A DNA stretch of 64,000 nucleotides from Mycobacterium barrassiae (GTDB lineage: Bacteria > Actinomycetota > Actinomycetes > Mycobacteriales > Mycobacteriaceae). Position 1 is the first letter of the stretch; each line of letters starts with the position of its first letter. The notes below the pieces were generated by a model. That model was not told the DNA's origin. It searched no databases and saw only the letters and a program-made list of their open reading frames with translations. The stretch spans positions 22,615 to 86,614 of the forward strand of contig NZ_JACKUK010000017.1 of NCBI RefSeq assembly GCF_025822765.1, written 5' to 3'. The translations under genes were made by a program, and so were the position numbers. Positions 3-47,968 of the stretch are shown piece after piece.

Positions 3-2789
<2,787 letters not shown>

Positions 2790-2793
2790 AAGG

Positions 2794-4413
2794 TCAGGCC
2801 TTCTCCTCCACAACCGGTTCGGGCTCAGATTGGGGCGCGGAAGCCGCGTCCTCCGGTGACACCAGGTTCAGCGGCCTCGCCAATTGTGTGGGGGCCACCC
2901 GCCCGCGCAGTTCGACGATCTCGCCGACGTCCCAGCACAGTGCCTCCGCGTCCAGCGCCCCGCTGACCGCGATGGCCGACGCGAGCACATGCCCCGGCTC
3001 GAGCTTGGCCAACTCGGTCAGCCGCGCGGCCTCGTTGACCGGGTCGCCGATGACGGTGTACTCGAATCGGGCCTGCGCACCGATGTGTCCGGCGATCGCG
3101 CGGCCGGCCGACACCCCGATGCCGAATTCGGTCTGGCCCAGCACCTGGATCAGTTCGTCGTGCAGCTCGCGCGACGCGGCCAGCGCAGCGCCACACGCGT
3201 CGGGGTGCTCGATCGGTGCGCCGAAGATGGCCAGCGCCGCATCGCCCTGGAACTTGTTGACGAAGCCGCCATGGCGGTTGACCGTGTCGACGACCACCCG
3301 GAAGAAGTCGTTGAGCAGGTTCACGACCTCGCCGGCCGGGATTGTGGCCGCCAGCTGTGTCGACCCGACGAGGTCGACGAACAGCACGGCCACATCGCGC
3401 TCCTGGCCACCGAGCTCGGTGCCGCGTTCCAGCGCCCGCCGGGCGACGTCCTCGCCGACGTAGCGGCCGAACAGGTCGCGTAGCCGCTGTCGTTCGGCGA
3501 GGTCACGCACCATGTCGTTGAAGCCCGCCTGCAGCAGGCCCAGCTCGCTGGCGTCGTAGATCTGCATGTGGGCGTTGTAGTTGCCGCGCTGCACCTCGCC
3601 CAGCGCCCACCGCAGCTGGCGCAGCGGGTCGGCGATCGACATCGCGACCAGCACCGTGCCGAACAGCCCGATGACCAATGCCGCGATGGCCAGCAGCAGG
3701 ATCGGCGTGGTCAGCTTGTCCGCAGGCGCGGTGAGCACCTCGAACTTGCTCGCCACCAGCGCCAGCACGATCGCCAGGATCGGCACGCCGGTGGACAGCA
3801 CCCACGTCATCACCTGGCGCTGGATCACCCCGGGGGCGCGGAAGTTCTCGGGCACCCCGCCACGCAGCGCGGCGACGGCGACGGGCCGCAACACCCGCTC
3901 CGACTGCAGATATCCGATGATCGCCGTCGCCGTGGCGCCCAGCCCGCTGGCGACGAACACGACCGGCGCCGACTTGCTGGCCACCGGCCAGCTGGCGACG
4001 ATGAACACGACCGACCCCAGCAGCCAGTTCGCGACGTTGATCATGGTGCGGTAGTAGGGCATCTTCAGCGCGCGGACGCGGGCCAGCTCGGTCACGGCCG
4101 GGTCGGTTTCGGTGAGCAGCGTGTCGCGGCGCTGCCAGCGGATCACAGGGATCAGCAGCCGCAGGCTCATATACGAGGCCGTCGTGAACGAGATGAAGAG
4201 GAAACCCAGGAACACCGCGAGGTTGAACGCCGGTAGATCCTGCAGCTGGATGCGGTCCTCGGGCGGCAGTCCGAACCGTAGGAAGCTCAGGACCAGCAGG
4301 GCGCCGATGATGTCGGCCTGCAGCATCCCGAGGGTGAACACCGGCCACGGCGTACGCGCGACCCAGCGGACGAATGCACCGATTCGTCTGATGGGGATGG
4401 CCGAATTGGTCAC
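2794..4413 (-). CDS. Membrane adenylate cyclase with HAMP and class III catalytic domain
   Basis: Predicted inner-membrane class III nucleotide cyclase making cAMP, 539 aa. About six hydrophobic segments lie within residues 25-260, followed by a HAMP region at about 258-312 and a catalytic domain from about 340. Visible catalytic residues are metal Asp D347 (FVDLVGST), K387 and D391 (NKFQGD), and D457, N460 and R464 (GDPVNEAAR), so it should be active. Architecture and position beside topA match Rv3645 of M. tuberculosis. The GTG start at 4413 lies 6 nt behind a TACGGT hexamer, which suggests a leaderless mRNA. It is divergent from holB. Confidence 0.95.
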   Translation of the reverse strand: MTNSAIPIRRIGAFVRWVARTPWPVFTLGMLQADIIGALLVLSFLRFGLPPEDRIQLQDLPAFNLAVFLGFLFISFTTASYMSLRLLIPVIRWQRRDTLLTETDPAVTELARVRALKMPYYRTMINVANWLLGSVVFIVASWPVASKSAPVVFVASGLGATATAIIGYLQSERVLRPVAVAALRGGVPENFRAPGVIQRQVMTWVLSTGVPILAIVLALVASKFEVLTAPADKLTTPILLLAIAALVIGLFGTVLVAMSIADPLRQLRWALGEVQRGNYNAHMQIYDASELGLLQAGFNDMVRDLAERQRLRDLFGRYVGEDVARRALERGTELGGQERDVAVLFVDLVGSTQLAATIPAGEVVNLLNDFFRVVVDTVNRHGGFVNKFQGDAALAIFGAPIEHPDACGAALAASRELHDELIQVLGQTEFGIGVSAGRAIAGHIGAQARFEYTVIGDPVNEAARLTELAKLEPGHVLASAIAVSGALDAEALCWDVGEIVELRGRVAPTQLARPLNLVSPEDAASAPQSEPEPVVEEKA

Positions 4414-4419
4414 TGGTCA

Positions 4420-4425
4420 ACCGTA
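4420..4425 (-). promoter_or_regulatory. -10 hexamer for leaderless cyclase mRNA
   Basis: TACGGT on the minus strand ends 6 nt before the GTG at 4413. This fits the TANNNT consensus with transcription starting at the start codon. No convincing -35 was seen. Confidence 0.5.
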
Positions 4426-4491
4426 TCGGTCGGCGCGGACTCGAAAAGGCGCAAACGAGCCCTGTGGGGCTGACGTGTCGCTTCGCAGCAC

Positions 4492-4497
4492 TACTGT
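4492..4497 (+). promoter_or_regulatory. -10 hexamer for holB
   Basis: TACTGT lies 8 nt before the ATG at 4506 and no Shine-Dalgarno sequence is present, which is consistent with leaderless holB mRNA. Confidence 0.45.
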
Positions 4498-4505
4498 TAT
4501 CTGCG

Positions 4506-5723
4506 ATGACCGGTGTTTTTTCACGTCTGGTGGGCCAGCAGGCAGTAGAAGCGGAATTGGTGGCAGCTGCACAGGCCGCCCGGGGTGATTCGTCTCACAC
4601 TTCTGGGTCCGACTCCGCCGGGCACACCATGACCCACGCCTGGCTGATCACCGGGCCGCCCGGATCGGGCCGATCGATCGCGGCGCTGTGCTTCGCCGCC
4701 GCGCTGCAGTGCACCAGCGACGGGGTGCCCGGCTGCGGTGAGTGCCGCGCCTGCTCGACGGCGATGGCGGGCACCCACGCCGACGTGCGGCGCATCGTCC
4801 CCGAAGGCCTGTCCATCGGGGTCGACGAGATGCGCACCATCGTGCAGATCGCGTCGAGACGGCCGAGCACCGGACGCTGGCAGATCGTCGTGATCGAGGA
4901 CGCCGACCGATTGACCGAGGGCGCGGCAAATGCGCTGCTGAAGGTCGTTGAGGAGCCGCCGCCGTCGACGGTGTTCCTGCTGTGCGCACCGTCGGTCGAC
5001 CCCGAGGACATCGCGATCACCCTGCGGTCGCGCTGCAGGCATGTCGCGCTGGTGACGCCGCCGGTCGATGCCATCGCTCAGGTCCTGATCGACACCGACG
5101 GGCTGGCGCCCGACGAGGCCCGCTGGGCGGCGTCGGTCAGCGGCGGCCATGTCGGGCGGGCGCGACGACTGGCCGTCGACGACGAGGCCCGTGAGCGCAG
5201 GCAGCGGGCCCTGGCGCTGGCCCGTGACGCGGCGACCCCGTCGCGCGCGTATGCGGCCGCCGAGGAGCTGGTCGCCACCGCCGAGGCGGAGGCGGTGTCG
5301 CTGACGGTCGACCGCAACGAGCTCGAGACGGAGGAGTTGCGCACCGCGCTCGGTGCCGGCGGCACCGGCAAGGGCACTGCTGGCACGATGCGCGGTGCGG
5401 CGGGGGCGCTCAAAGATCTTGAGCGACGGCAGAAGTCGCGTAAGACGCGGGCGTCACGCGACGCGCTGGACCGGGCGCTGATCGACCTGGCCACGTACTT
5501 CCGGGATGCACTGCTGGTGTCCGCCGGCGCCGACACCATCGCCCCGAACCACCCCGACATGAGTGAGCGGGTCGCCGCGATAGCCGCGCACGCGTCACCG
5601 GAGAAGCTGCTGCGCTGCATCGAGGCGGTGCTGGACTGCCGCGAGGCGCTGGATATGAACGTGAAGCCGAAGTTCGCGGTCGACGCGATGGTGGCCACCG
5701 TCGGCCGTGCTCTGCGTGACTGA
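4506..5723 (+). CDS. holB: DNA polymerase III subunit delta'
   Basis: Clamp-loader AAA+ subunit, 405 aa. The start chosen is the ATG at 4506 (MTGVFSRLVGQ), because mycobacterial homologues begin there and a -10 hexamer lies 8 nt upstream. The longer frame from 4464 would begin inside the promoter. The P-loop reads GPPGSGRS (about 50-57) with Arg in place of the catalytic Lys, as expected for a non-hydrolysing delta'. Cys 69, 77, 80 and 83 form the zinc module. A degenerate Walker B (IEDADRL) and an LRSRC motif follow. The tRNA-Thr gene lies just downstream. Confidence 0.95.
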   Translation: MTGVFSRLVGQQAVEAELVAAAQAARGDSSHTSGSDSAGHTMTHAWLITGPPGSGRSIAALCFAAALQCTSDGVPGCGECRACSTAMAGTHADVRRIVPEGLSIGVDEMRTIVQIASRRPSTGRWQIVVIEDADRLTEGAANALLKVVEEPPPSTVFLLCAPSVDPEDIAITLRSRCRHVALVTPPVDAIAQVLIDTDGLAPDEARWAASVSGGHVGRARRLAVDDEARERRQRALALARDAATPSRAYAAAEELVATAEAEAVSLTVDRNELETEELRTALGAGGTGKGTAGTMRGAAGALKDLERRQKSRKTRASRDALDRALIDLATYFRDALLVSAGADTIAPNHPDMSERVAAIAAHASPEKLLRCIEAVLDCREALDMNVKPKFAVDAMVATVGRALRD

Positions 5724-5776
5724 GTTGGGCCCTCGGTGTGCCCTGTCGTAGACTCGTGCCGCCCCGAAACGGGCAC

Positions 5777-5852
5777 GCCACCTTAGCTCAGTCGGTAGAG
5801 CGATTCACTCGTAATGAATAGGTCAGGAGTTCGATTCTCCTAGGTGGCTCCA
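5777..5852 (+). tRNA. tRNA-Thr (anticodon CGU)
   Basis: A full cloverleaf can be drawn. The acceptor stem GCCACCT (5777-5783) pairs with AGGTGGC (5842-5848). The D-arm contains AGCTCAGTCGGTAGAGC, the anticodon loop CTCGTAA carries CGT, and the T-arm is AGGAG-TTCGATT-CTCCT. The discriminator is T at 5849 and CCA is encoded at 5850-5852. The same tRNA sits beside holB in M. tuberculosis. Confidence 0.97.
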
Positions 5853-5871
5853 GCTACCAGCGGCGCGTCCG

Positions 5872-6246
5872 TCAGCTCTTGGCGCCGAACAGCTCACCCG
5901 CCACCCGCAGGGCTGAGTTGGCCGCCGGGAATCCGGCATAGCCCGTCGAGTGGTAGATCACCTCGGCGATCTCGTTTTCGGTCAGGCCGTTGTTGCGCGC
6001 GATCTGGACGTGAATCTGCAGCTCGTCGGTCGCCCGCGACGCGATGAGGATGCCGAGCGTGACAAGGCTGCGGTCGCGCCGGCTCAGCCCGTCGCGGGTC
6101 CACAACCTGCCGAAGACGTTGTCCATCACCAGCGGCAGCATCTCGCTTCCGAATGACCCTTCCGGGATCTCGACGTCGCCCTCCGGCAGCACGCCGGGAA
6201 GCAGCTCGCGGAAAACCTCGAATCCTTGCTCACGCACATCTGTCAT
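5872..6246 (-). CDS. Carboxymuconolactone decarboxylase-family protein
   Basis: Small all-alpha CMD-fold protein, 124 aa. The conserved core is RDRSLVTLGILIA, then HVQIARNNGLTENEIAEV, then GYAGFPAANSAL. There is no CxxC, so it is of the gamma-carboxymuconolactone-decarboxylase type and not the AhpD peroxidase type. The substrate cannot be deduced: no protocatechuate-pathway genes are nearby. It stands alone between the tRNA and the galE operon. A hydrolase or regulator-associated CMD paralogue is equally possible. Confidence 0.85.
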   Translation of the reverse strand: MTDVREQGFEVFRELLPGVLPEGDVEIPEGSFGSEMLPLVMDNVFGRLWTRDGLSRRDRSLVTLGILIASRATDELQIHVQIARNNGLTENEIAEVIYHSTGYAGFPAANSALRVAGELFGAKS

Positions 6247-6271
6247 GGGGGACAGCGTGACACGCGGCGGC

Positions 6272-8056
6272 CTATCTGGGAGCGACGAACCCGACCGGTC
6301 CCGGCGAGATGCACACCGACAACGCCGCGGTGTTGGCCCGGACGTCGATCGCGTCGCCGGCGCCTGGGAGCCGGACGAAGACCCGGTTCAGGCCTGGCCG
6401 CACCGGCACCTTCACCTCGACCCCCTCCGTAAGCGACATCGTCAGCGATCCATCGCTGTTGGCCAGGTAGTTGATCTCCGCGGTCCAATCGGCGGGCAGC
6501 AGCGGGCCGTCCAACGGCATCCGCACCGGGAAGTCCGGTTGCACCAGGTAGCCGCATTGCGGCTCGGGGCCGTCGACGATGCTGCGGACCCAGGTGACCT
6601 TCGCATCCACCAATCGACCGGAACTGTCCAGCATGCGCAAGTCCGTTGTGGCCGAGGCGAACTCGGGCCGGTGGCGCAGCAGGGCGAACATGTGGCTGGC
6701 CCGGTTTTCGGGTCCGACCACGCGCTGCAACACCAGCGGGTCGACCTCCTGGTCGAGCATCGCAGCGCTGGATTCCAACGACGCGGCGGCCAGTCCCGCT
6801 ACGGCATTCTGCAGGTAGGGCTGGGCCGGGTTGTCCCGCCAGCTCGTCAGGAACGTCATCGTCGAGTACAAGCTGCTCGCCATGAATGCGGTTGTCGCGA
6901 CGACGATTACGGCCGTCCTGGCGCGTGATGCGTCAAGCCACTCCGCACCCTCGCGGTTGGGTGCGCACAGACCGACGGCCGCCAGCAGTGCCAGCACGAT
7001 CACGAGATCGGGCAGGTACCGCAGGGTCTGCGCCAACTCGAGGGCGGTGTACTGCGACGACCGCATCAGGTAGATCGGTATCTGGCATGCCACCGCGTAG
7101 CCGACCGCGACGAGCCACACCGGGCCGATGCGCCGCTTGCGCGCAACCGTCACCGCCACCACGACCGCCAGGGCCACCCAGCCCAGAACCATCACGGTCA
7201 GCGGCGGTGTACCCCAAGGCGACGCCGGCGCCCAGCGTTGCCAATCCCACGGCCCGCCATCGAGTCCTGGCACGATGCCGTGCGTCACCGAGCGACTCAA
7301 CAGATCCCAGGTCATCGACCAGTCGAGGGTCCACCGTTTCTGGTCGACGACGGCGAGATAGACGGCGATCCACGCCGCGGTGACCGCGAGGGCCGAGACC
7401 CACAGTCGAATCCCGCGACGCCACACCGTCGTCAGTGATCCGGTGCCCGTGACGTGCGCGAGCAGAGCGACGATCGCGAACGCGACAAAGGGGATGACGG
7501 CCGCCTTCTCGAAGAACAACAGACCGCCGAAATAGACCAGCAGACCCGACACGGCATAGCGTTGATTTCCGGTGCGCACCAACAGAACAGCGTCCCCGCA
7601 CACCCAGGCCAGCGCCGCCAGCATCGGCAGCGAGTTCAACGCGGCAGCCCACCAGGCGAAGCCGGGTACGGCCAACGGGGTGAACAGCGCGAAGGTCAGC
7701 GGAATGAGCAACACGGGCCGCCAGCCCAGGATCACGTGCAGCGCCCGCAGCAGCGCCAGCGACGCCAGCAGCTGCAGCACGATCAGGCTGATCGCCGGTA
7801 GGAACCACTGCAGCGGGGCGACCCGGGTGATGGCGCCGGCGACCAGGAACGCGCCGGGCATGACGTGACCGTCGTGGTCGTCGAACAGATAGTTCACGGA
7901 CAGCAGGTTCTGGGTGCCCGCACGGCCGATGAGGATCAGGTCGTCCCAGTAGAAATAGCCGTTGAAGGCGAGCACCGCGCGGATGACCAGTTGCACCGCG
8001 ATCAGCGCGGCTGCGGTGCGGGCGACCCAGTTGGCTTGGCTCGTAGTGCTTTTCAC
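6272..8056 (-). CDS. Polytopic membrane protein, possible GT-C glycosyltransferase
   Basis: Membrane protein of 594 aa with roughly ten hydrophobic helices and a soluble C-terminal domain of about 200 residues. The first periplasmic loop carries YFYWDDL, an acidic pair placed as in GT-C glycosyltransferases that use polyprenyl-phosphate sugars. Its GTG start at 8056 overlaps the galE stop as GTGA, so it is translationally coupled to galE. I infer a role in moving a galactose-type sugar onto a cell-envelope acceptor. The acceptor is unknown and the enzymatic assignment is tentative. Confidence 0.8.
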   Translation of the reverse strand: MKSTTSQANWVARTAAALIAVQLVIRAVLAFNGYFYWDDLILIGRAGTQNLLSVNYLFDDHDGHVMPGAFLVAGAITRVAPLQWFLPAISLIVLQLLASLALLRALHVILGWRPVLLIPLTFALFTPLAVPGFAWWAAALNSLPMLAALAWVCGDAVLLVRTGNQRYAVSGLLVYFGGLLFFEKAAVIPFVAFAIVALLAHVTGTGSLTTVWRRGIRLWVSALAVTAAWIAVYLAVVDQKRWTLDWSMTWDLLSRSVTHGIVPGLDGGPWDWQRWAPASPWGTPPLTVMVLGWVALAVVVAVTVARKRRIGPVWLVAVGYAVACQIPIYLMRSSQYTALELAQTLRYLPDLVIVLALLAAVGLCAPNREGAEWLDASRARTAVIVVATTAFMASSLYSTMTFLTSWRDNPAQPYLQNAVAGLAAASLESSAAMLDQEVDPLVLQRVVGPENRASHMFALLRHRPEFASATTDLRMLDSSGRLVDAKVTWVRSIVDGPEPQCGYLVQPDFPVRMPLDGPLLPADWTAEINYLANSDGSLTMSLTEGVEVKVPVRPGLNRVFVRLPGAGDAIDVRANTAALSVCISPGPVGFVAPR

Positions 8057-9042
8057 GCGGGATAGTTGTCGCCGGCCCGGCTGCGCGCCTCCCACGCCGA
8101 GGCCACCATCTCGCGCAGCGAATGCCGCATCTGCCAGTCCAGGTCACGCTTGGCCAGGTCGCCCGACGCGACGATGCGGGCCGGGTCTCCCGGCCGCCTG
8201 GGTTTGATCGTCGGTTCGAAGTCGATCCCGGTGACGTCCCGGATCGCCGTCATGATCTGGCGCACCGACGTGCCGTCCCCGCTGCCGAGGTTGTACACCG
8301 GCTCGACCGGCTCGTTGGCGACGAGCCGTACCGCGGCGGCGACGTGAGCCAGCGAAAGGTCGGTGACGTGGATGTAGTCGCGCACGCATGTCCCGTCCGG
8401 TGTCGGGTAGTCGTCACCGTTGATGTGTGGCGTCTCGCCCCGGAAGAGCGCGTTGAACACCAACGGAAACAGGTTGTGCGGACTGGCGTCGAACAGTTCG
8501 TCCGAACCGGAGCCGACCACGTTGAAGTAGCGCAGGCTGGTGTGCCGCAGACCAGAGGCGCGGCCGGCGTCGCGCAGCAGCCACTCGCCGATCAGTTTGG
8601 TCTCACCGTAGGGCGACTCCGGTCGCGTCGGGGTGTTCTCGGTGACGATGTCGACATCCGGGGTGCCGAAGGTGGCCGCGCTGGACGAGAACACCATCTT
8701 GTCGACGCCCGTGGCCTCCATCGCCTTGAGCAGCGTCACCATTGCCGAGACGTTCTGCTCGTAGGTGTGCAGTGGCCGCTGGACCGACACTCCGGCGTAC
8801 TTGAACCCGGCGATGTGAATGACGCCGTCGACGTGGTGGTCGCGCAGGGTCTGCGTGACGAGGTCCCCGTCCAGCAGGGTGCCGCGCACGAACGGCACCG
8901 ATGCGGGGACGAACTGCTCCAGCCCCGTGGACAGGTCGTCGATGACAACCACCTGGATGTCGGCGTCCATCAGGGCGCGGACCACGTGGGAGCCGATGTA
9001 GCCAGCTCCGCCAGTCACCATCCACGTCATCGGAGCCGCCAC
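8053..9042 (-). CDS. galE: UDP-glucose 4-epimerase
   Basis: Extended short-chain dehydrogenase that interconverts UDP-glucose and UDP-galactose. The NAD-binding Rossmann motif TGGAGYIGSH is at the N terminus, followed by SSSAATFG (catalytic Ser/Thr region) and YGETK (YxxxK). The start is ambiguous. GTG 9042 sits 7 nt behind a perfect TAGACT -10 hexamer (leaderless). ATG 9030 (MTWMVTGG) matches the usual family N terminus. I chose 9042. It is first gene of a two-gene operon with the polytopic membrane protein. Confidence 0.92.
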   Translation of the reverse strand: MAAPMTWMVTGGAGYIGSHVVRALMDADIQVVVIDDLSTGLEQFVPASVPFVRGTLLDGDLVTQTLRDHHVDGVIHIAGFKYAGVSVQRPLHTYEQNVSAMVTLLKAMEATGVDKMVFSSSAATFGTPDVDIVTENTPTRPESPYGETKLIGEWLLRDAGRASGLRHTSLRYFNVVGSGSDELFDASPHNLFPLVFNALFRGETPHINGDDYPTPDGTCVRDYIHVTDLSLAHVAAAVRLVANEPVEPVYNLGSGDGTSVRQIMTAIRDVTGIDFEPTIKPRRPGDPARIVASGDLAKRDLDWQMRHSLREMVASAWEARSRAGDNYPA

Positions 9043-10938: not shown

Positions 10939-11541
10939 ATGGCACGAACTCAGCAGCAACGTCGGGAGGAAACGATCGCGCGGCTGCTCGACGCCAGCAT
11001 CGACACCATTGTCGATGTCGGATACGCACGGGCGTCGGCGGCGATGATCGCCAAGCGCGCCAACGTATCCGACGGTGCGCTGTTCCGCCACTTCCCGACC
11101 ATGGGTGACTTCATGGCCGCCACCGCCCAGGAGGTGATGCGACGGCAACTGGGACTGTTCTCGAAGCGGGTGGCCGAGATACCGGCCAACGAGCCGGCGT
11201 TGGAGGCCGCGCTCACCATCCTGCGCGACGTCACCGGTAACGCCACCAACACCGTCATGTATGAGCTGATGGTCGCGGCGCGCACGGACGAAAAGCTCAG
11301 GGGCACTCTGAGAGAGGTGCTCGCCGAATATGCGGCGAACATCTACGAGGCCGCAAGGGCGCTTCCCGGCGCCGAGCAGATTCCGGACGAGACCTTCATC
11401 GCATTGGTGGCGATACTCACCAACGCCTTCGACGGCGCGGCGATCGTGCGTGCGGTGCTGCCGCAGCCTGAACTCGAGGACAAGCGAATCGAGCTGCTGG
11501 CGGCGCTGCTCAGCGGGACGTCACCGACGCTACGGGCGTAA
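10939..11541 (+). CDS. TetR-family transcriptional regulator
   Basis: 200 aa, start ATG 10939 (MARTQQQRREE), 1 nt after the stop of the amidohydrolase. The N-terminal helix-turn-helix contains ARASAAMIAKRANVSDGALFRHFPTMGDF, summarised here by its ANVSDGALFRHFP recognition segment. The C-terminal ligand domain is unassigned. It is likely an autoregulator of the operon through the palindrome at 9117-9138. Its last 12 nt overlap the convergent flippase gene. Confidence 0.93.
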   Translation: MARTQQQRREETIARLLDASIDTIVDVGYARASAAMIAKRANVSDGALFRHFPTMGDFMAATAQEVMRRQLGLFSKRVAEIPANEPALEAALTILRDVTGNATNTVMYELMVAARTDEKLRGTLREVLAEYAANIYEAARALPGAEQIPDETFIALVAILTNAFDGAAIVRAVLPQPELEDKRIELLAALLSGTSPTLRA

Positions 11542-12783
11542 CCCATCTGAAGCCCTAGCGAGCGCGGCGAGGTGCACCGCGATCCCCACCAGTGGCCCGC
11601 ATGTCAGCGCGACCACGGTGCGCGTCTCGAGGCTCATCGGCAGGAGGAGAAGCGCCGCTGCCGCGACGGTCGCCGAGACCCAGCCCAGCGAGTACGCCCG
11701 GTGCAGTGCCGCCGCCACCGTCGCGGCGCCGGTCAGGGTCAGCAGTGCGATGACGATTGCCGCTGCGGTCAACCACGCCAACAGTGACCCGGTGGCGACG
11801 TAGTCGGCACCGAATGCGCTGCGGAGCAACCACGGTCCGAAGATTCCTGCGGCCAGCACGCCGAGCAGCCCGACCGCCAACACCACTGCGGTAGGTGTGA
11901 TGAGCGCCCGCAGCCGGCGCGTGCGCTGGTCGACGAAATAGGCGATCAGGTTGCCCTGCATCGCGGTGAGCGGTACCAGCAGCGGGGCGCGCGTAAGCGT
12001 CACGGCCAGAATGACGACCCCACCCGTCGCACCCAGATCACCGGATGTCGCCTTGAGTAACACCGGGAAGCCCATCACCAGGACAGCGCTGGCGCCTGCT
12101 GCGGCGATCGAGTGCGCCGTCCCGCGCAGGAACGCGGCCGTGCCGCCGGGTGTCATCAGGTTCGCCGCGGTTCTGGTGGCCGGGGAGACGATCAACATGA
12201 TCAGCCAGGCGATCGAGCCCGCCACCGTCGCCCACAGGTATCCGATCAACCCCCAACCCACCAAAAACGTTGTCGTGGCCACGATCACCCGCAGCACAGC
12301 GTCGGTCACCATCAGCGAGCCGTACGCCGTCCACCGGTTCAGCCCCGCGAGCACGCCCATCAGCGTGGTGTGAAGGCAGAAGCCCGCGAGGCCGACGGCC
12401 AGCAGCGCAACCGACGGCCACCGCTCGTCGGCGAACACATATCCCGACCACAGCGGTGAGCTGCCCGCGATCACGACCGCAGCGGCGACTCCGACGAGCG
12501 CGGCCACCCGCATGGGATGGGCCTGCGGGCCGGTGACGACCTCGCTGTAGTCGGCCGAGCGCACCTCACGCGTCGTCTCCTGCAACAGACCGAACGCGGC
12601 ACCGGTGGCGAGGCCGAACGCCCCCCAGAAGACACCGAATGCCGCGAACCCGGCCGGTTCGAGGTCGCGCGCGGCGAGGTAGAGCACGGCGTAGCCGCAC
12701 AGCGCGGTCAGCGCGGTGGCGGCGCCGACCCGGGCAACGCTCGCTCGCGCGGCGGGACCGGCCGGGGTGCCTGCGTCTGTCAC
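11530..12783 (-). CDS. Flippase-like (MATE/polysaccharide-export type) membrane protein
   Basis: 417-aa protein with about 12 predicted membrane segments and charged loops, resembling oligosaccharide-flippase/MurJ-MATE fold transporters. Clear helices include LTLTGAATVAAAL and ALLLLPMSLE near the end. The GTG start at 12783 overlaps the preceding peptidase stop as GTGA. As third gene of the synthetase-peptidase operon it is a good candidate to export the product or its lipid-linked form. Transport substrate is unknown. Confidence 0.82.
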   Translation of the reverse strand: MTDAGTPAGPAARASVARVGAATALTALCGYAVLYLAARDLEPAGFAAFGVFWGAFGLATGAAFGLLQETTREVRSADYSEVVTGPQAHPMRVAALVGVAAAVVIAGSSPLWSGYVFADERWPSVALLAVGLAGFCLHTTLMGVLAGLNRWTAYGSLMVTDAVLRVIVATTTFLVGWGLIGYLWATVAGSIAWLIMLIVSPATRTAANLMTPGGTAAFLRGTAHSIAAAGASAVLVMGFPVLLKATSGDLGATGGVVILAVTLTRAPLLVPLTAMQGNLIAYFVDQRTRRLRALITPTAVVLAVGLLGVLAAGIFGPWLLRSAFGADYVATGSLLAWLTAAAIVIALLTLTGAATVAAALHRAYSLGWVSATVAAAALLLLPMSLETRTVVALTCGPLVGIAVHLAALARASDGLRP

Positions 12784-14117
12784 GACGAGACATCCAGGGC
12801 GGGTAGCTCGGGGGAGTAGAGCCACGCTGCCCACAGCGGCCTCAGGGAGTCGTTGGTGTAGTTCGACGCCAGCCCGGTGAAGTCGTCGGTGACCACGGTG
12901 CTGTGCCGGTGTCGTGCCGTCCAATCACGAAGCAGGGCAAAGAAGTTGTCGTCACCGAGGCGCCGCCGCAGCACGTGCAGGGTGAGCGCACCGCGCTTGT
13001 ACACGCGGTCGTCGAACATGTCGCGCGCGCCCGGGTCCGCCAGGATGAGGTTCTGCGGCGAATCCGCCAGTCGCTGGTAGTAGTGCTGCGCCCATTCGTC
13101 GGCGCTGCGACCGCCCGAGTGCTCCGACCACAACCACTCGGCGTAGCAGGCGAAGCCCTCGTGCAGCCAGATGTGGCGCCAACGCTGGGCGGTCACCGAA
13201 TTGCCGAACCACTGGTGTGCGAGTTCATGGGCGATCAATCGCTCGGCGCTGCCATTGCCGTCGCAGTGATTCGCCCCGAAAATCGAGATACCTTGCGCCT
13301 CAAGCGGTATCTCCAAGTCGTCGTCGGTGACCACGACGGTGTAGCCGGTCGCCAGGGGATAGGGTCCGAACAACTTGACGAACAGCTTCATCATCTTCGG
13401 CTGATCGGCGAAGTCACGATCGAAATTGTGCCGCAACCGATCCGGCAGGACCGCGTGCATCTGGACGCCGTTTTTCGCCATACGGTGACGGTTGTACATC
13501 CCGATCTGCAGCGTCACCAGATAGGTCGACGTAGGCTCAGCCTGTTCGTATGTCCAGGTCGTCATGCCCGCCCGCGCGCGCCGCGACACCAGCTCACCGT
13601 TGGCCAGTGCGTAGTACGGGCTCTCGGTGCTGATGCGGATGGCGAAGATCGCCTTTGCGCTGGGGTGGTCGTCGCAGGGGAACCACGAGGCCGCACCGTT
13701 GGGCTGCCCAGCCACCAGGACGCCCTCGGTCAGTTCTTCGAAACCGACCTCCCCCCAAAGGGAGTGGATCGGCTTGGGAGTGCCGCCATACCGCACGACG
13801 ATCGACATCGCCGCGCCGGCGGGCAGGGCCTCTGACAGGCCGATGTGCAGCTTGTTCTGCGACGACCTGAACCGCTCCGGCCGTCGGCCATTGACGGTCA
13901 CCTTCGTGACCGTGAACGCATGCGACAGGTCGAGGGTGAAAGTGCGCAGTGCGGCCAGCGTTACCGCGGTGATGGTGGCCGTCCCGGTGAGCCGGTTGAT
14001 CGCCACCTTGTACTCGAGGTCGAGTTCGTAGCGCGACACTCGGTAGCCGAAGTTGCCGTTGGCCGGGAGGTAAGGGTCGATGACCGGTGGGTTGCCCTTC
14101 TTCTTGCTCCCGGTCAC
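12780..14117 (-). CDS. M1-family zinc metallopeptidase (aminopeptidase-like)
   Basis: 445-aa gluzincin. HELAH at residues 297-301 with E320 in WLHEGF gives the HExxH-x18-E zinc site. The substrate-N-terminus-binding GAMEN motif is replaced by a LEAQGIS segment, so exopeptidase specificity is uncertain. No signal peptide was seen, so a cytosolic or membrane-associated location is likely. Start GTG 14117 overlaps the synthetase stop (GTGA). From memory, M1-type enzymes that degrade epsilon-poly-lysine are encoded next to pls in producing Streptomyces, which makes this neighbour meaningful. Confidence 0.92.
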   Translation of the reverse strand: MTGSKKKGNPPVIDPYLPANGNFGYRVSRYELDLEYKVAINRLTGTATITAVTLAALRTFTLDLSHAFTVTKVTVNGRRPERFRSSQNKLHIGLSEALPAGAAMSIVVRYGGTPKPIHSLWGEVGFEELTEGVLVAGQPNGAASWFPCDDHPSAKAIFAIRISTESPYYALANGELVSRRARAGMTTWTYEQAEPTSTYLVTLQIGMYNRHRMAKNGVQMHAVLPDRLRHNFDRDFADQPKMMKLFVKLFGPYPLATGYTVVVTDDDLEIPLEAQGISIFGANHCDGNGSAERLIAHELAHQWFGNSVTAQRWRHIWLHEGFACYAEWLWSEHSGGRSADEWAQHYYQRLADSPQNLILADPGARDMFDDRVYKRGALTLHVLRRRLGDDNFFALLRDWTARHRHSTVVTDDFTGLASNYTNDSLRPLWAAWLYSPELPALDVSS

Positions 14118-17100
14118 GCGGCGGCGTCTTCTGCCGTCTTGGGCGTGGTGACACCGCTGTCCTTCTTGCGGAACAGATTCCACGGCGCGATCGGATTGCC
14201 CAACCAGCGCGTCGATGGTGGTACCTCGTCACCACGCATCACCAGCGAGGCCGGGCCGACCGTCGCACCCGCGCCGATCCGGGCCGCGGGCAACGCGACA
14301 CAGTGCGGACCCAGAGTCGAACCCTCCTCAAGCACCACGGTGTCCATCCGCATGATGCGGTCGTGGAACAGGTGCGTCTGGACCACACAGCCGCGGTTGA
14401 CGGTCGAGCCATCACCGAGGGTGACCAGATCGGCCTCGGGCAGCCAGTACGTCTCGCACCACACGCCGCGGCCGATGGACGCGCCGAGCGCCCGCAGCCA
14501 CAGGTTCATCACCGGTGTGCCGGTCGCGGCGCGGGCGAACCACGGCGCTGCGACGGTCTCGACGAACGTGTCCGACACCTCGTTGCGCCACACGAACGCT
14601 GACCACAACGGGTGCTCGATCGCGCGGATACGGCCCACCACAAGCCATTTCGCTATCACCGCGACAGTGCCTGCGATCGCACCCGCCACCAACAGGACGA
14701 CGCCGCCCGTCAGCGCCGGCCACAGCCAGCCGAAGGTCGCCGCCAGCCACTGAAGCGTCAGCAGCACGGCGACACCGATCGCGAAGGTGACGATGAGCGG
14801 AACGAGCCGGCAGGTCTCGACCAGTCCGCGCAGGATCTTCAGCCGCCCCGAGGGATGGAAAGTGCGCAGCGTGTCGGCCGCGGTCGGCTTGCGCCGCAAC
14901 CGAACCGGCGGGCTACCGAGCCACGACGACCCCGCCTTCGCCTTGTGCGGTGTGGCCGACAGTACGGCGACGAGCCCGTCGTCGGGCACTTTGCGGCCCG
15001 GTTGGGTGATGCCGGAGTTACCGAGGAACGCGCGCTTGCCGATGGTCGCCTGCGCGACATGAATCCAGCCGCCTCCCAGTTCATAGGAGGCGACCATGGT
15101 GTCGTCGGCCAGGAAAGCACTGTCCTCGATGACCGTGAACTTCGGCGTCAGTAGCGCCGTCGAAATCTCAGTACCCCGGCCCACTTTCGCTCCGAGCGCG
15201 CGCAGCCACCACGGGGTCAACAGGCTGGCATACAGCGGGAAGAGGTAGTTCCGCGCGGCATCCATCAGTCGTTCGGTCGCCCATATCTGCCAGCCGACGC
15301 GACTGCGCACGGGATGATAGCCCTCGCTCAGCCACAGCGAGAGCACCCGCACCCCGATCACCGTCAGCAGTGCGTACGTCAACACGGCGGCCACCGTCGC
15401 CACCGGGGTCCACAGCGCGGCGGGTGCGATGGCCTCCGACACCGTCTTCGCGTCACGCACGCCCCAACCGATGACGGCGAGGCCGACGCCCAGCGCCAGC
15501 AGTGGAAGGGCACCGAGCAGCAGAGACGTCACGCCGTAGACGGCCACCCACAGCGGTGCCCGTGGCGGGCGGTGATCCGGCCACGGATGGCGGGCCTTGC
15601 CCGACTTCACCGCGGGCGAGCCCTTCCAGTATTGGCCGTTCTTGACCTTGCCGACCACGCCGGAACCCGGGGCGACGTCCGCGTTCTTGCCGACGACCGA
15701 GCCGGGCAGCAGGGTGGTGCGGGCACCGACGGTGGCGTCGTTGCCGATGGTGATGCGACCGACGTGGAAGTTGTCTCCGTCGATCCAGTGTCCCGACAGA
15801 TCGACCTCGGGCTCCACGGAACTGCGGTGGCCGAGCTTCAGCATGCCGGTCACCGGAGGAGCCGAGTGCAGGTCGACGCCCTTGCCCACCTTGTTGCCGA
15901 GCGCGCGGGCGTAGTACACCAGCCACGGCGCCCCGGCCAGGTTCTCCGCCCCACTTGCCTCCGCGAGACGTTCGGCGAACCACACCCGCAGGTGCACCGC
16001 GCCGCCACGAGGGTAGGTGCCGGGTTCCAGCCCGGACAGCAGCATCCGCGCGAAGAGCGCCGCGATGCCCATCCGGCCTAGTGGTGTGACGAACACCAGG
16101 AAGCCCGCAGCGACCCACCACCAGCCAAGCGGCCTCGCCCACGGCACGAGGTCCAGTTCGGCCGCGACATTGTTGGCAAGGGCGAGCCAGACGACCCATT
16201 GCAGCGCGGTCAGCGTGGCCAGTGGCAGCGACAGGGCCATCTGAACGGCTTGGGCGAGCCGCGGCGTCGGTTTGACCACACGTGTCTGTACCCGCGGCGG
16301 TGGTTTCAACTCGTCGAGGTAGGTGGCCAGCGATCCGAGGCGGGGATGGTCGTAGAGGTCGGCGACCGTCACCTGGGGATATCGCTGACGCAGCGCGGCC
16401 ACCAGCTGCGCGGCGGACAGCGATCCGCCGCCGAGCGCGAAGAAGTCGGCTTCGGGCCCCTCGATCGGCGCGGCGAGGACGTCCCGCCACAGGCTGGCCA
16501 CCCAGCCCATCGTCCCTGCAAGGTCGGAGGCGTCCTCGGCCACGGGTTCGCCGGGAGGTGGCCACGGCAGTGCGTCGCGGTCGACCTTCCCCGACGTGCG
16601 GGTGGGCAGTTCGGCCACGAGCACCAGGCGCGGGACCAGGGCTGCGGGCAGCGCTTCGGCCAGCCTCGCGCGGGCCGCGGCGAGGTCGAACGACGGGTCA
16701 GTGCTGGCGATATAGCCCACCAGCAGTGGGGTGCCGCTGGCCGTGCGGCGCACCGCCGCCGCCCCGCCGCTGACGCCCGGGAGGTTGACCAGCGCCGAGT
16801 CGACTTCGCCGAGCTCGATCCGGCGGCCGCCGACCTTGACCTGGTCGTCGGCGCGGCCCTGGAAGTAGAGGCCGTCGCTCTCCAGGCGAACCAGGTCACC
16901 GCTTCGGTAGCAGCGATCCCACCCCAACGTGGGCATCGGGGCGTACTTCTCGGCGTCCTTCTCCGGATCCAGATAGCGGGCCAACCCGACGCCGCCGATG
17001 ACGAGTTCACCGACCTCGCCATACGACACCGGCACGCCGTCGCGGTCCACCACCGCCAGATCCCACCCGGGCAGCGGCAGCCCGATGCTCACCGGACCCC

Positions 17101-18034
17101 AGGCGCGCAGCCGCGCCGCGCACGCCACGACCGTCGTCTCGGTGGGGCCGTAGGTGTTCCACACCTCGCGACCCTCGACCGCAAGACGCTCCGCCAACTC
17201 GAGAGGGCAGGCCTCACCGCCGAAGATCAGCAGCCGCACCGACTCGAGCGCCTCGGCAGGCCACAACGCCGCGAGCGTCGGCACCGTCGACACCACCGTG
17301 ATGTCCCGCGACACCAGCCACGGACCCAGATCCATACCGCTGCGCACCAGCGATCGTGGTGCGGGCACCAGGCACGCGCCGTTCCGCCACGCCAGCCACA
17401 TCTCCTCACACGACGCGTCGAACGCAACGGACAGACCGGCGAGCACCCGGTCGCCGGGACCGATCGGGTTGTCCTGCAGGAACATTCGTGCTTCCGCATC
17501 GACAAACGCCGCCGCACTGCGGTGCGTGACCGCCACCCCTTTCGGGGTGCCGGTGGAACCGGAGGTGAAGATGATCCAGGCGTCGTCGCGTCCGAGGGGA
17601 GATGCCGCGCGCCACCCGCGTGAGGAGCCCTGCGCGCGGATCAGTCCGGCCTCGGTGATGATGGCGACCACCCCGGCCTCGCTGAACACCAGGTCGGCCC
17701 GTTCGTCGGGGTCGTCCGCGTCGACGGGAACGTAGGCGGCACCCGTGGCCAGGGTCGCGAGGATCGCCACGTACAGCGCGTAGCTGCCCGACGGCATCCG
17801 GATCCCGATGCGGTCGCCGCGCCCGATGCCCCTGGCGGCCAGCCAGTCGACGCTCTCCTCGATGTCGGAGATCATCTCCGCGTAGGTCAGCTGGACCTCG
17901 CCGTCGTCGATGGCCGGCGCGTCGGGATGACGGGCCGCCGTGTCGTAGAGGATGTCGATCAGTGTGCGGGGCTCGGGTGCGTGCCGGGACCGCTCGTACT
18001 GCGCGGGTATCGCGCGTGAAAAGGCCCCAGTCAC
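14114..18034 (-). CDS. Pls/PosA-type NRPS-like synthetase (A-T domains plus membrane LbH domains)
   Basis: 1306 aa from GTG 18034. The adenylation domain (about 20-490) has IIFTSGSTGTPKG, NTYGPTETT, YRSGDL, GRADDQVKVGG and catalytic K483 (RTSGKVDRD). A thiolation domain follows with phosphopantetheine Ser 538 (GGGSLS). There is no condensation or thioesterase domain. The remainder alternates hydrophobic segments with three left-handed beta-helix (hexapeptide-repeat) blocks at roughly 720-800, 930-1050 and 1180-1285. This is the architecture of epsilon-poly-lysine synthetase relatives (TIGR02353 type). Aligning with GrsA gives specificity residues D-A-E-S-I-G-T-V-V-K, close to a lysine code. 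First gene of a coupled three-gene operon. Confidence 0.92.
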   Translation of the reverse strand: MTGAFSRAIPAQYERSRHAPEPRTLIDILYDTAARHPDAPAIDDGEVQLTYAEMISDIEESVDWLAARGIGRGDRIGIRMPSGSYALYVAILATLATGAAYVPVDADDPDERADLVFSEAGVVAIITEAGLIRAQGSSRGWRAASPLGRDDAWIIFTSGSTGTPKGVAVTHRSAAAFVDAEARMFLQDNPIGPGDRVLAGLSVAFDASCEEMWLAWRNGACLVPAPRSLVRSGMDLGPWLVSRDITVVSTVPTLAALWPAEALESVRLLIFGGEACPLELAERLAVEGREVWNTYGPTETTVVACAARLRAWGPVSIGLPLPGWDLAVVDRDGVPVSYGEVGELVIGGVGLARYLDPEKDAEKYAPMPTLGWDRCYRSGDLVRLESDGLYFQGRADDQVKVGGRRIELGEVDSALVNLPGVSGGAAAVRRTASGTPLLVGYIASTDPSFDLAAARARLAEALPAALVPRLVLVAELPTRTSGKVDRDALPWPPPGEPVAEDASDLAGTMGWVASLWRDVLAAPIEGPEADFFALGGGSLSAAQLVAALRQRYPQVTVADLYDHPRLGSLATYLDELKPPPRVQTRVVKPTPRLAQAVQMALSLPLATLTALQWVVWLALANNVAAELDLVPWARPLGWWWVAAGFLVFVTPLGRMGIAALFARMLLSGLEPGTYPRGGAVHLRVWFAERLAEASGAENLAGAPWLVYYARALGNKVGKGVDLHSAPPVTGMLKLGHRSSVEPEVDLSGHWIDGDNFHVGRITIGNDATVGARTTLLPGSVVGKNADVAPGSGVVGKVKNGQYWKGSPAVKSGKARHPWPDHRPPRAPLWVAVYGVTSLLLGALPLLALGVGLAVIGWGVRDAKTVSEAIAPAALWTPVATVAAVLTYALLTVIGVRVLSLWLSEGYHPVRSRVGWQIWATERLMDAARNYLFPLYASLLTPWWLRALGAKVGRGTEISTALLTPKFTVIEDSAFLADDTMVASYELGGGWIHVAQATIGKRAFLGNSGITQPGRKVPDDGLVAVLSATPHKAKAGSSWLGSPPVRLRRKPTAADTLRTFHPSGRLKILRGLVETCRLVPLIVTFAIGVAVLLTLQWLAATFGWLWPALTGGVVLLVAGAIAGTVAVIAKWLVVGRIRAIEHPLWSAFVWRNEVSDTFVETVAAPWFARAATGTPVMNLWLRALGASIGRGVWCETYWLPEADLVTLGDGSTVNRGCVVQTHLFHDRIMRMDTVVLEEGSTLGPHCVALPAARIGAGATVGPASLVMRGDEVPPSTRWLGNPIAPWNLFRKKDSGVTTPKTAEDAAA

Positions 18035-18041
18035 GGCTACA

Positions 18042-18047
18042 AAACTA
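18042..18047 (-). promoter_or_regulatory. -10 hexamer for synthetase operon
   Basis: TAGTTT on the minus strand lies 7 nt before GTG 18034. This decides the start and predicts a leaderless transcript for the operon. Confidence 0.5.
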
Positions 18048-18137: not shown

Positions 18138-18263
18138 GCGGAGGGGAGTATTCCTTCGCCGTAGCGTCGTCATCACGTCGACCTCCATCGGACGACCGGT
18201 GCTGCGGACCGCGCGGTCGTCGCGGTGGAAGAGACCTCCGGCGTTTTGACGACCGGAGGCTTT
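18138..18263 (+). promoter_or_regulatory. yybP-ykoY (Mn2+) riboswitch
   Basis: Hallmarks of the manganese aptamer are present in order: AGGGGAGTA (18142-18150), GTCGTCATCACG, an internal ACCGGTGCTGCGGACC, and closing GAGACCTCCG (18231-18240). GGAGG (18140-18144) can form P1 with CCTCC (18235-18239). The same CCTCCGG (18235-18241) can instead pair perfectly with CCGGAGG (18253-18259), which holds the ribosome-binding site of terC. I infer a translational ON switch in manganese. Confidence 0.85.
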
Positions 18264-22374: not shown

Positions 22375-22863
22375 TCAGTGACCGGCGTTCTTGAACCGCT
22401 CGATCGAGGCCTGAAGTTCGGCCTCGGCCTTCTCGCGACCCACCCAGTCCGCGGCCTTGACGTACTTGCCGGGCTCGAGGTCCTTGTAGTGCACGAAGAA
22501 GTGCTTGATCGCGTCGAGTTCGTAGGCAGGTACGTCTTCGAGGTCCTGGATGTGGTCCCAGCGTCCGTCGCCGGCAGGCACGCACAGCAGCTTGTCGTCG
22601 CCGCCGGCCTCGTCGGTCATCTGGAACATCGCGACCGGACGTGCCTCGACGATGCAGCCCGGGAACACGGACTCCGGCAGCAGGACCAGCGCGTCGAGCG
22701 GATCGCCGTCCTCGCCGAGCGTGTTCTCGAAAAAGCCGTAATCGGTCGGGTAGCCCATCGCGGTGTAGAGGTAGCGGTCCAGCTTCACCCGGCCGGTGTC
22801 GTGGTCCACCTCGTACTTGTTCCGCGAACCCTTCGGGATCTCGATGACTACGTCGAACTCCAC
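22375..22863 (-). CDS. ppa: Inorganic pyrophosphatase
   Basis: Family I soluble pyrophosphatase, hydrolysing PPi to drive biosynthesis; 162 aa. Start GTG 22863 follows AGGAAGG. Signature residues are visible: [19 protein letters not shown], the metal-binding [11 protein letters not shown] (three Asp), and [13 protein letters not shown]. Near-identical in layout to Rv3628. Single-gene unit with its own terminator, convergent with nothing and divergent from the DUF6159-like gene. Confidence 0.97.
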
Positions 22864-22920
22864 GGCGGTGCCTTCCTGCCCTGTACTGAGGTATTGGGGA
22901 CGGCATCACCCTAATCTGCC

Positions 22921-22926
22921 TACGAT
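22921..22926 (+). promoter_or_regulatory. -10 hexamer for membrane protein gene
   Basis: TACGAT lies 25 nt before ATG 22952. It leaves a short leader containing GGGAGG. Confidence 0.35.
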
Positions 22927-22951
22927 TCTCGCCACCTACTCGGGAGGCGCC

Positions 22952-23806
22952 ATGGGCAGAATCTCTACCGGCTGGGCTCTGACGAAGCAGAGCTGGGCTG
23001 TTCTGAAGAACGACCGGTCGCTGGTGATCTTCCCGATCCTGTCGGCGGTGTTCGCGAGCATCGCGGTCGTCGTGATCATGGTTCCGGCGGCGTTCGCCGA
23101 CGCCATGGTGCAGGGCGGGGCGAACAACCAGGAAGGCATCATCGCTGCCGTCGGCGCGGCCGTGACCATCTATGTGTCCACGTTCTTCGCCATTTTCTTC
23201 AATGTGGCGCTGGCCGCATGTGCTGCGCGCTCGCTGCGGGGTGAGGACACCAAGGTTGGTGAAGGTATCTCGGCTGCGATGCGCCAACTCGGGCCGATCC
23301 TGGGATGGACCGTCGTCGCGGGGACCGTCGGGGTGATCCTGCGGGTTCTGGAGAACCGCTTGCCGCTCCTGGGGCAGATCGCGACGGCGATAGCCGGGGC
23401 CGCGTGGTCGGTCGCAACGTTCTTCGTCGTTCCCGTGATCGCGATGGAGGGCACGGGACCGTTTGCCTCGTTGAAGCGGTCGGTGCAGGTCATCAAGGCC
23501 AAATGGGGTGAGGGTGCGACCGGGCAGATCGCGATCTCTGCGGCGACGGGGTTGATCGTGTTCGCGATCGTGTTCGGCGGTGGCGGAATCGCCGCTGCCC
23601 TGGTCGCCATCAAACTGCAACCGGTCGCCATCGCGGTCGGGGTCGTCACGGTGGCCGCCGTGATCATCGTCGCGGTCGTCTCCAGCGCGATGAACTCGAT
23701 CTTCCGCGTCGCCGTCTACCAGTACGCGATCACCGGTCAGACGCCTGTCGCGTTCGACCCCCAGTTGGTGCAGGCGACGTTCGGTGCACGCGGCCGACGG
23801 GCGTGA
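22952..23806 (+). CDS. DUF6159-like integral membrane protein
   Basis: 284 aa, start ATG 22952 preceded by GGGAGG (spacing 5). MGRISTGWALTKQSW leads into about six hydrophobic segments (for example VIFPILSAVFASIAVVVIM and GIAAALVAIKL), with the conserved cytosolic SLRGEDTKVGEGI and EGTGPFASLKRSV. I assign the DUF6159 family from this pattern, with moderate certainty. Function is unknown. The next gene, dacB, begins 25 nt downstream behind its own -10 hexamer. Confidence 0.82.
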   Translation: MGRISTGWALTKQSWAVLKNDRSLVIFPILSAVFASIAVVVIMVPAAFADAMVQGGANNQEGIIAAVGAAVTIYVSTFFAIFFNVALAACAARSLRGEDTKVGEGISAAMRQLGPILGWTVVAGTVGVILRVLENRLPLLGQIATAIAGAAWSVATFFVVPVIAMEGTGPFASLKRSVQVIKAKWGEGATGQIAISAATGLIVFAIVFGGGGIAAALVAIKLQPVAIAVGVVTVAAVIIVAVVSSAMNSIFRVAVYQYAITGQTPVAFDPQLVQATFGARGRRA

Positions 23807-23820
23807 TCGGGGTCAACGGA

Positions 23821-23826
23821 TACCCT
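23821..23826 (+). promoter_or_regulatory. -10 hexamer for dacB
   Basis: TACCCT lies 5 nt before ATG 23832, a near-leaderless arrangement with slightly short spacing. Confidence 0.35.
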
Positions 23827-23831
23827 GAGCT

Positions 23832-25211
23832 ATGCGGCCAACCAGATGGGGGCGTTCCACCCATGCGTTGATCGCGGTGGCGGTGCTGGTGCTGGTCGCC
23901 GCCGTCGTCGCGGTTTCGGCCATGGTCACGGGCGGCGGCTCCCCCGATGCGGCGGCGGTCAAGCCGCCACCCCCGGCGGCGACGGCGAACCCGGGCATCG
24001 TGCCGGTTTCCGACTCAGCCCCCAAGCCCACCAAGGACCGGCTGGCCGCCGTGCTGGCGCCCGTGCTCGCCGATCCCAATCTCGGCAAGTTCACCGGTCG
24101 CATCACCGACGCGATCACCGGCGCGGAGCTCTGGTCGCAGGGCGCCGACGTGCCGATGCAACCCGCGTCGACCAACAAGACGCTGACCGCCGCCGCGGCA
24201 CTGTTTACCCTCGACCGGGACGCCCGGCTGACCACCCGGGTGTTCAGCACCGACAAACCGGGTGTGGTGGTCCTCAAGGGCGGCGGTGACCAGACGCTGT
24301 CGGCGGCCAAGCCCGGCGATGCCACCTGGTACCGCGATGCGGCGCGTATCAGCGATCTGGCCGAGCAGGTGGAGGCCGCCGGGATCGACCCCACCGCCGT
24401 GCAGGTCGATGTGAGCCAGTACAGCGGCCCGACGATGGCGCACGGCTGGGATCCGGCCGACATCGACGGCGGTGACATCGCACCGATGGAATCGGTGATG
24501 CTCGATGGCGGCCGCACCCAGCCCGTCAGTGTCGACTCCACGCGATCCAAGACACCGGCGCTCGACGCCGGCCGCGCGCTGGCCGTCGCGCTCGGCGTCG
24601 ACCCTGCCAAGGTGACCGTCGTGCCGGGGGCCGCTCGCGGTGGCCAGGAGATCGGGTCGGTGCAGTCGCCGCCGCTGATCGATCGGCTGCGCGACATGAT
24701 GAACGCCTCGGACAACGTGATGGCCGAGTCGATCGGCCGCGAGGTGGCCGCCAAACTCGGCCTCCCGCAGAGCTTCGACGGCGCGGTGCGGGCGGTCCTG
24801 CGCCAGCTCGAAGCCGCCAAGATCGACACGACGAACGCCAGGCTCTTCGATGCCAGCGGGTTGTCCGTCGATGACCGGCTCACCGCGGAGACCCTCGACG
24901 AAGTCGTCAACGCCGCCGCGGGCAACGACCAGCCCAAGCTGCGTCCGCTGGTCGAACTGCTGCCGATCGCCGGTGGTAGCGGCACGCTGTCCAATCGCTA
25001 CCTCGGCACCGATGCCCACCGGGCCGCTGCCGGTTTCCTGCGGGCCAAGACCGGATCGCTCACCGGAACCAACTCGCTGGCCGGCATCATCACCGATGCG
25101 AGCGGACGCGTCCTCACCTTCGCGTTCATCTCCAACGACGCGGGGCCGACAGGTCTGATCGCCCTGGACAACTTCGCCGCCACACTGCGGTCGTGCGGAT
25201 GCAGCGCATGA
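23832..25211 (+). CDS. dacB: D-alanyl-D-alanine carboxypeptidase (PBP4, S13 family)
   Basis: Periplasmic class C penicillin-binding protein that trims peptidoglycan stem peptides; 459 aa, ortholog of Rv3627c. An N-terminal uncleaved or cleavable hydrophobic segment (ALIAVAVLVLVAAVVAV) and a Pro-rich linker precede the catalytic domain. All three motifs are visible: SxxK in PASTNKTL, SDN in MNASDNVMAE and KTG in AKTGSLTGT. The stop overlaps the next start as ATGA, beginning a coupled dacB-protease-tilS-hpt operon. Confidence 0.95.
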   Translation: MRPTRWGRSTHALIAVAVLVLVAAVVAVSAMVTGGGSPDAAAVKPPPPAATANPGIVPVSDSAPKPTKDRLAAVLAPVLADPNLGKFTGRITDAITGAELWSQGADVPMQPASTNKTLTAAAALFTLDRDARLTTRVFSTDKPGVVVLKGGGDQTLSAAKPGDATWYRDAARISDLAEQVEAAGIDPTAVQVDVSQYSGPTMAHGWDPADIDGGDIAPMESVMLDGGRTQPVSVDSTRSKTPALDAGRALAVALGVDPAKVTVVPGAARGGQEIGSVQSPPLIDRLRDMMNASDNVMAESIGREVAAKLGLPQSFDGAVRAVLRQLEAAKIDTTNARLFDASGLSVDDRLTAETLDEVVNAAAGNDQPKLRPLVELLPIAGGSGTLSNRYLGTDAHRAAAGFLRAKTGSLTGTNSLAGIITDASGRVLTFAFISNDAGPTGLIALDNFAATLRSCGCSA

Positions 25212-47825: not shown

Positions 47826-47968
47826 CCGTCTGCTTAGGATGCTGATGTAATCGACGGGCGAAGGAATCTGGTGAGAATCCAGAACGGTCGCGCCACTGTG
47901 TGAAGTCAGACCCGACGTCAGTCGTCAACACCTGAAGCTGGGACGCGCAATCCCGGGAAGGATTCTGA
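47826..47968 (+). promoter_or_regulatory. Cobalamin riboswitch
   Basis: Core motifs in order: GGAATCTGGTGAGAATCC (about 47867-47884), AACGGTCGCGCCACTGTG, then GTCAGACCCGAC and a terminal CCCGGGAAGGATTC which holds the GGAAGG ribosome-binding site of cbtB. This is the B12-element pattern. Repression of cobalt uptake when adenosylcobalamin is plentiful is the expected effect. Boundaries are approximate. Confidence 0.88.

Follow-up and report, generated by a model that had tools for sequence, protein, structure and literature searches.

We conclude that ORF1 and ORF2, two adjacent minus-strand genes in the window (the whole stretch of 64,000 nt of Mycobacterium barrassiae DNA that was analysed), probably constitute a mycobacterial pls–pldII operon that would make and trim epsilon-poly-L-lysine or a near relative of it, and that the third gene behind them, ORF3, is probably a separate envelope gene. 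In the proposed pathway the adenylation (A) domain of ORF1 would activate L-lysine as lysyl-AMP, the thiolation (T) domain would load it on its phosphopantetheine arm, and the membrane-embedded triple beta-helix domain would join the lysines through isopeptide bonds; the zinc M1 peptidase encoded by ORF2 would cut the polymer, thereby protecting the cell and setting the chain length. ORF3 would encode a MOP flippase that shares a message with the pls–M1 pair here simply through its position, and the gene that usually accompanies it in relatives probably encodes a polyprenyl-phosphate-sugar synthase (GT2, PpgS-like).

Gene organization and flanking sequences

ORF1 (14114–18034, minus strand) encodes a Pls/PosA family NRPS-like synthetase of 1306 aa that starts with the GTG at 18032–18034; its residues are numbered from a translation that begins at 18037, and the GTG start is hence residue 2. 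It is followed on the same strand by ORF2 (12780–14117), which encodes a PldII-like M1 zinc metallopeptidase of 445 aa, and by ORF3 (11530–12783), which encodes a putative MOP-superfamily flippase-like membrane protein of 417 aa. The preliminary description of this DNA had three genes joined by GTGA overlaps behind one leaderless promoter. All three were found, and both junctions do read GTGA, the stop overlapping the next GTG start in each case. A putative promoter, the −10-type box TAGTTT at 18042–18047 (minus strand), lies 7 bases 5′ of the ORF1 GTG; by eye, an AGTA-type box is present at this position in 12 of 23 relatives and a TAGGAT box in four, and no box is visible there in the remaining seven, for one of which (L053) the stretch inspected is not the upstream region. 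The spacing of TAGTTT and the boxes in relatives fit a leaderless start, which is likely for ORF1. The span originally given for the operon, 11530–18047, does hold the genes, but its right edge is this promoter-type box and not coding sequence.

To one side of the operon (42–9042) are topA, a cyclase-like gene and a DNA polymerase III subunit-like gene (names assigned by eye), a tRNA, a membrane gene and galE, and to the other side (22375–25211) an inorganic pyrophosphatase gene and an S13 carboxypeptidase gene with an Rv3627c_N domain; we take this gene order to be that of the region Rv3627c–Rv3646c. The pls–M1 pair lies here within the topA-to-carboxypeptidase region, and in one other genome (G031) it sits elsewhere.

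The window also contains two RNA elements. The divergent terC gene has a strongly conserved structured leader (18138–18263, plus strand) with a GGAGGGGAGUAUUCC hairpin and a long helix, in which up to three standard pair types occur per position among 23 distinct aligned sequences; the leader also occurs at five further loci, Mycolicibacter included, which were left out of the alignment, a script having found no expected ribosome-binding motif in them. CCUCCGG/CCGGAGG complementarity is predicted to mask the terC ribosome-binding site. A search of Rfam with this leader gave no match at gathering and only weak unrelated matches at E-values up to 10. The leader may be akin to a yybP-ykoY manganese riboswitch that has diverged. 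A cobalamin riboswitch is located at 47839–47964 (plus strand), with 51 bits against a gathering score of 50.

The Pls/PosA-type synthetase

ORF1 matches TIGR02353, the curated Pls/PosA model, with 754.5 bits (757.1 bits in the genome-level search) against a cut-off of 423.1; among 14 control genomes the model gave weak matches in 13 and one above the cut-off. The A domain (16568–17968, residues about 24–490) matches PF00501 and TIGR01733 (323.3 bits), and the T domain (16316–16504, residues 512–574) matches PF00550 (E-value, 6.9e-14), with its phosphopantetheine site in LGGGSL. Behind these lies a putative membrane polymerization domain (14189–16246), with six transmembrane helices in the predicted model arranged as three long-helix pairs, each followed by a beta-helix block (C1–C3), and neither a condensation nor a thioesterase domain was found in ORF1 by a Pfam scan at E-values up to 0.001. 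Pfam and the predicted model thus agree with the domain order read from the sequence in the preliminary description, and the same A–T and C-terminal membrane layout is described for Pls/PosA synthetases (PMC10522769, in part).

The further suggestion, that this is the layout of an epsilon-poly-lysine synthetase, is strengthened by the A domain. With this domain as query the S. albulus epsilon-poly-L-lysine synthase structure 7wew is the sole solved sequence below 1e-100 (7wew_A; E-value, 4.3e-193), and in a comparison confined to the A domain 318 of 480 residues are identical to S. albulus Pls (66%), as is the entire pocket, DAESIGTVVK. The same pocket is present at 133 of 134 fetched loci, a set that counts the locus of the window itself and has some genomes in duplicate; at the last one (L004) the sequence is cut off. 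PosA of Acinetobacter baumannii, a delta-poly-L-ornithine synthetase, shares the family model and the C-terminal architecture (PMC10522769, in part), but its pocket is DMEHNGTVSK, and a Met to Ala pocket change is reported in the same source to favour lysine. Since ORF1 has the lysine pocket of Pls, we did not retain a specificity for ornithine (PosA-like) or for another diamino acid.

The C-terminal domain has an acyltransferase fold, and several acyltransferases of this kind act on nucleotide sugars. This would suit an enzyme that activates lysine and then hands one residue, or a few, on to an acceptor in the envelope rather than making a free polymer, as would the wide conservation of the gene within the genus and its position beside a flippase gene and, in relatives, a GT2 gene. 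We nevertheless think such a transfer unlikely: the characterized relatives make cationic homopolymers (PMC10522769 and PMC8117764, each in part), and an M1 partner suits a polymer substrate. Polymerization of lysine thus remains the activity that we favour for ORF1.

The M1 peptidase and its co-conservation with the synthetase

ORF2 consists of PF17900 and PF01433 domains, and the site residues are HELAH (297–301), Glu320, Tyr373 and, at the GAMEN position, Glu273. His297, Glu298, His301, Glu320 and Tyr373 have the zinc-ligand and catalytic roles familiar from M1 enzymes, and these five and Glu273 are invariant in all 111 rows of an alignment of the window with 110 fetched loci, one of which (L001) repeats the sequence of the window itself. 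As first described, ORF2 lacks a literal GAMEN motif; in its place is a nearly invariant I-P-x-E-A-Q that retains the glutamate. The nearest solved structure is 6a8z, a zinc metalloprotease of 474 residues (E-value, 1.7e-43); at 445 aa, ORF2 is too short for the helical domain that larger M1 enzymes carry at the C terminus. Its reading frame is full length at all 110 fetched loci and, this being so, the M1 matches in the genus survey that contain one stop probably overrun the gene end. The preliminary description had pointed to an M1-type degrading enzyme encoded beside pls in epsilon-poly-lysine producers, and ORF2 is the M1 partner to be expected from pls–pldII as it appears in parts of PMC8117764 and PMC9223678.

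The two genes are strongly co-conserved. Among 198 genomes of the genus (this genome included), a full synthetase, counted from match places above the TIGR02353 cut-off, is present in 148 and the M1 gene in 150, with both together in 147; the single synthetase-positive genome that has no M1 gene is G182, and all three M1-positive genomes that lack a full synthetase carry partial synthetase matches. M1 positions were taken from tblastn, as gene clustering split M1 into several clusters, apparently through wrong strand choices in high-GC DNA. One genome (G030) has two full Pls/PosA synthetases (C21 and C82), and the automatic tally of the search accordingly stands at 149 against our count of 148. 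The arrangement extends well beyond the genus: in the best 80 named loci of at least 546 confirmed, which come from mycobacteria, Rhodococcus, Nocardia, Williamsia, Tsukamurella, Dietzia and others, the synthetase has M1 downstream of it in 78, at less than 1 kb in 77, and the other two loci stop at a contig edge. Class-wide, the S. albulus Pls A domain has a match at E-values up to 1e-150 in 95 of 394 genomes.

A tree of 82 synthetases, built by a quick method, follows families, and its 40 mycobacterial and mycobacterium-like rows form one fully supported group, which fits a mainly vertical descent of the synthetase. That both genes are remnants of a secondary-metabolite cluster, silent and functionless at present, is very improbable in the light of this agreement with taxonomy, of the invariant pocket and catalytic residues, and of the synthetase places displayed for the genus, in which there is no stop codon (one was met in a match of the tree set, L106). 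Against this, 50 of the 198 genomes are without a full synthetase, and C. variabile, which has the genes, gave no detectable epsilon-PL in culture according to the cited part of PMC8117764, so that gene presence does not ensure product. We also note that, for an antibiotic gene, a distribution over 148 of 198 genomes is wide; the role of a functional pls–pldII operon in mycobacteria may be a different one.

The flippase-like gene and the wider setting of the operon

ORF3 is predicted to have a MOP fold, in keeping with its initial description as a multi-helix flippase-like protein. An informative relative came from the predicted structure alone: Pfam, NCBIfam, PHROGs and PDB sequences gave none by sequence, and no MOP family in Pfam matched any of 19 ORF3 family members at E-values up to 10. 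Identity to the WzxE lipid III flippase is 15%. Synteny places ORF3 at Rv3630 of M. tuberculosis, to which it presumably corresponds, although in contrast to the Rv3630–Rv3631 (ppgS) region a GT2 partner was not found in this genome. MATE-like matches have been reported for Rv3630 (PMC8562490, in part). In relatives the ORF3 homologue often adjoins a GT2 glycosyltransferase gene (26–45 bases apart in 19 rows of the 20 at the head of the list, the other one lacking a listed ORF3 position), the order in this region being galE, membrane gene, MOP gene, GT2, PhyH, pyrophosphatase and carboxypeptidase. In many Mycolicibacterium-type genomes four genes follow one another as synthetase, M1 peptidase, flippase and GT2.

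Co-conservation of all three genes had been put forward as a check on the operon; it holds for synthetase and M1 and fails for the flippase, which occurs without the synthetase. Homologues of ORF3 are found in 195 of the 198 genomes of the genus, in 48 of the 50 that are synthetase-negative as well as in 147 of the 148 that are synthetase-positive, and this distribution, with the frequent GT2 neighbour, sets ORF3 apart from the synthetase pathway. The idea of one make–trim–export unit, in which the MOP flippase would carry a lysine polymer, free or lipid-linked, across the membrane, accordingly retains its synthetase–peptidase pairing and loses the flippase, and as a whole it has little probability. 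The GTGA overlaps speak for it, as do the predicted MOP fold and the lipid-linked or cationic cargo that MOP proteins carry. So does the position of the homologue directly after the peptidase in 29 of the best 80 named loci, some of them from Williamsia, Speluncibacter and Dietzia, an adjacency across families that argues for a flippase–peptidase link of more than accidental kind. Further points against a single unit are that in G031 some 215 kb separate the homologue from the synthetase, that it is present in just 37 of 121 genomes and 8 of 31 genera at the family level, and that none was found in any Rhodococcus or Nocardia locus among the best 80, within the limited stretches around each synthetase.

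A more far-reaching proposal is that epsilon-polylysine or oligolysine is part of the envelope in most species of the genus, which would make it themselves, and that, in part of the order, the synthetase, M1, flippase and GT2 form a four-gene pathway that would put lysine chains on a polyprenyl-linked amino-sugar, to be flipped and to decorate arabinogalactan. We regard this as quite a long shot, and prefer a two-gene pls–pldII operon with ORF3 as a separate envelope gene.

The pls–pldII operon of S. albulus is the closest parallel. It shares with this locus the A–T–membrane C1–C3 layout, the lysine pocket and the A domain similarity given above, and it has a zinc peptidase gene adjacent downstream (PMC9223678, in part); it differs in that the MOP flippase gene is an addition at this locus and that the product here is predicted. 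PldII itself is likened to ORF2 by description, and the closest proxy compared, the M1 peptidase encoded next to a synthetase with 78% A domain identity to Pls, shares 41.5% identity with ORF2. According to the same part of PMC9223678, translation of pldII is coupled to that of pls, and the pldII product degrades epsilon-PL and affects polymer length. C. variabile has the same two-gene operon as ORF1–ORF2, and coryneform Pls pockets are reported to be identical or highly similar to that of Pls, but in C. variabile the product has been demonstrated, solely by heterologous expression, and the account of the operon in the results and discussion mentions neither a flippase nor a GT2 (PMC8117764, in part).

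Homologues of Pls were noted in Nocardia in 2014 (PMC4035055, in part) and reported in coryneforms in 2021 (PMC8117764, in part). The preliminary description knew of no such product in mycobacteria, and this is uncontradicted by the open-licence literature, in which we found no paper describing either a polylysine product or a pls–M1 operon in mycobacteria; the genes themselves are not new, however, since the Pls/PosA family name already appears in the NCBI annotation of M. intracellulare and M. avium plasmid records. The M. intracellulare plasmid NZ_CP023152.1 (7878–11858) encodes a Pls/PosA synthetase with the lysine pocket and no M1 in the stretch examined; its gene (L140) overlaps a PLP-dependent cysteine-synthase-type gene, large NRPS, PE/PPE, WXG100 and SagB-type genes are nearby, and similar matches are present on four M. 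avium plasmids.

The machinery is thus known from other bacteria, and the interest lies in its wide presence in a genus for which we found no report of the product. If ORF1 and ORF2 act like their relatives, about three-quarters of the sampled species (148 of 198) could make a polycationic antimicrobial, and such a polymer would be relevant both to competition in soil and water and to the charge of the envelope.
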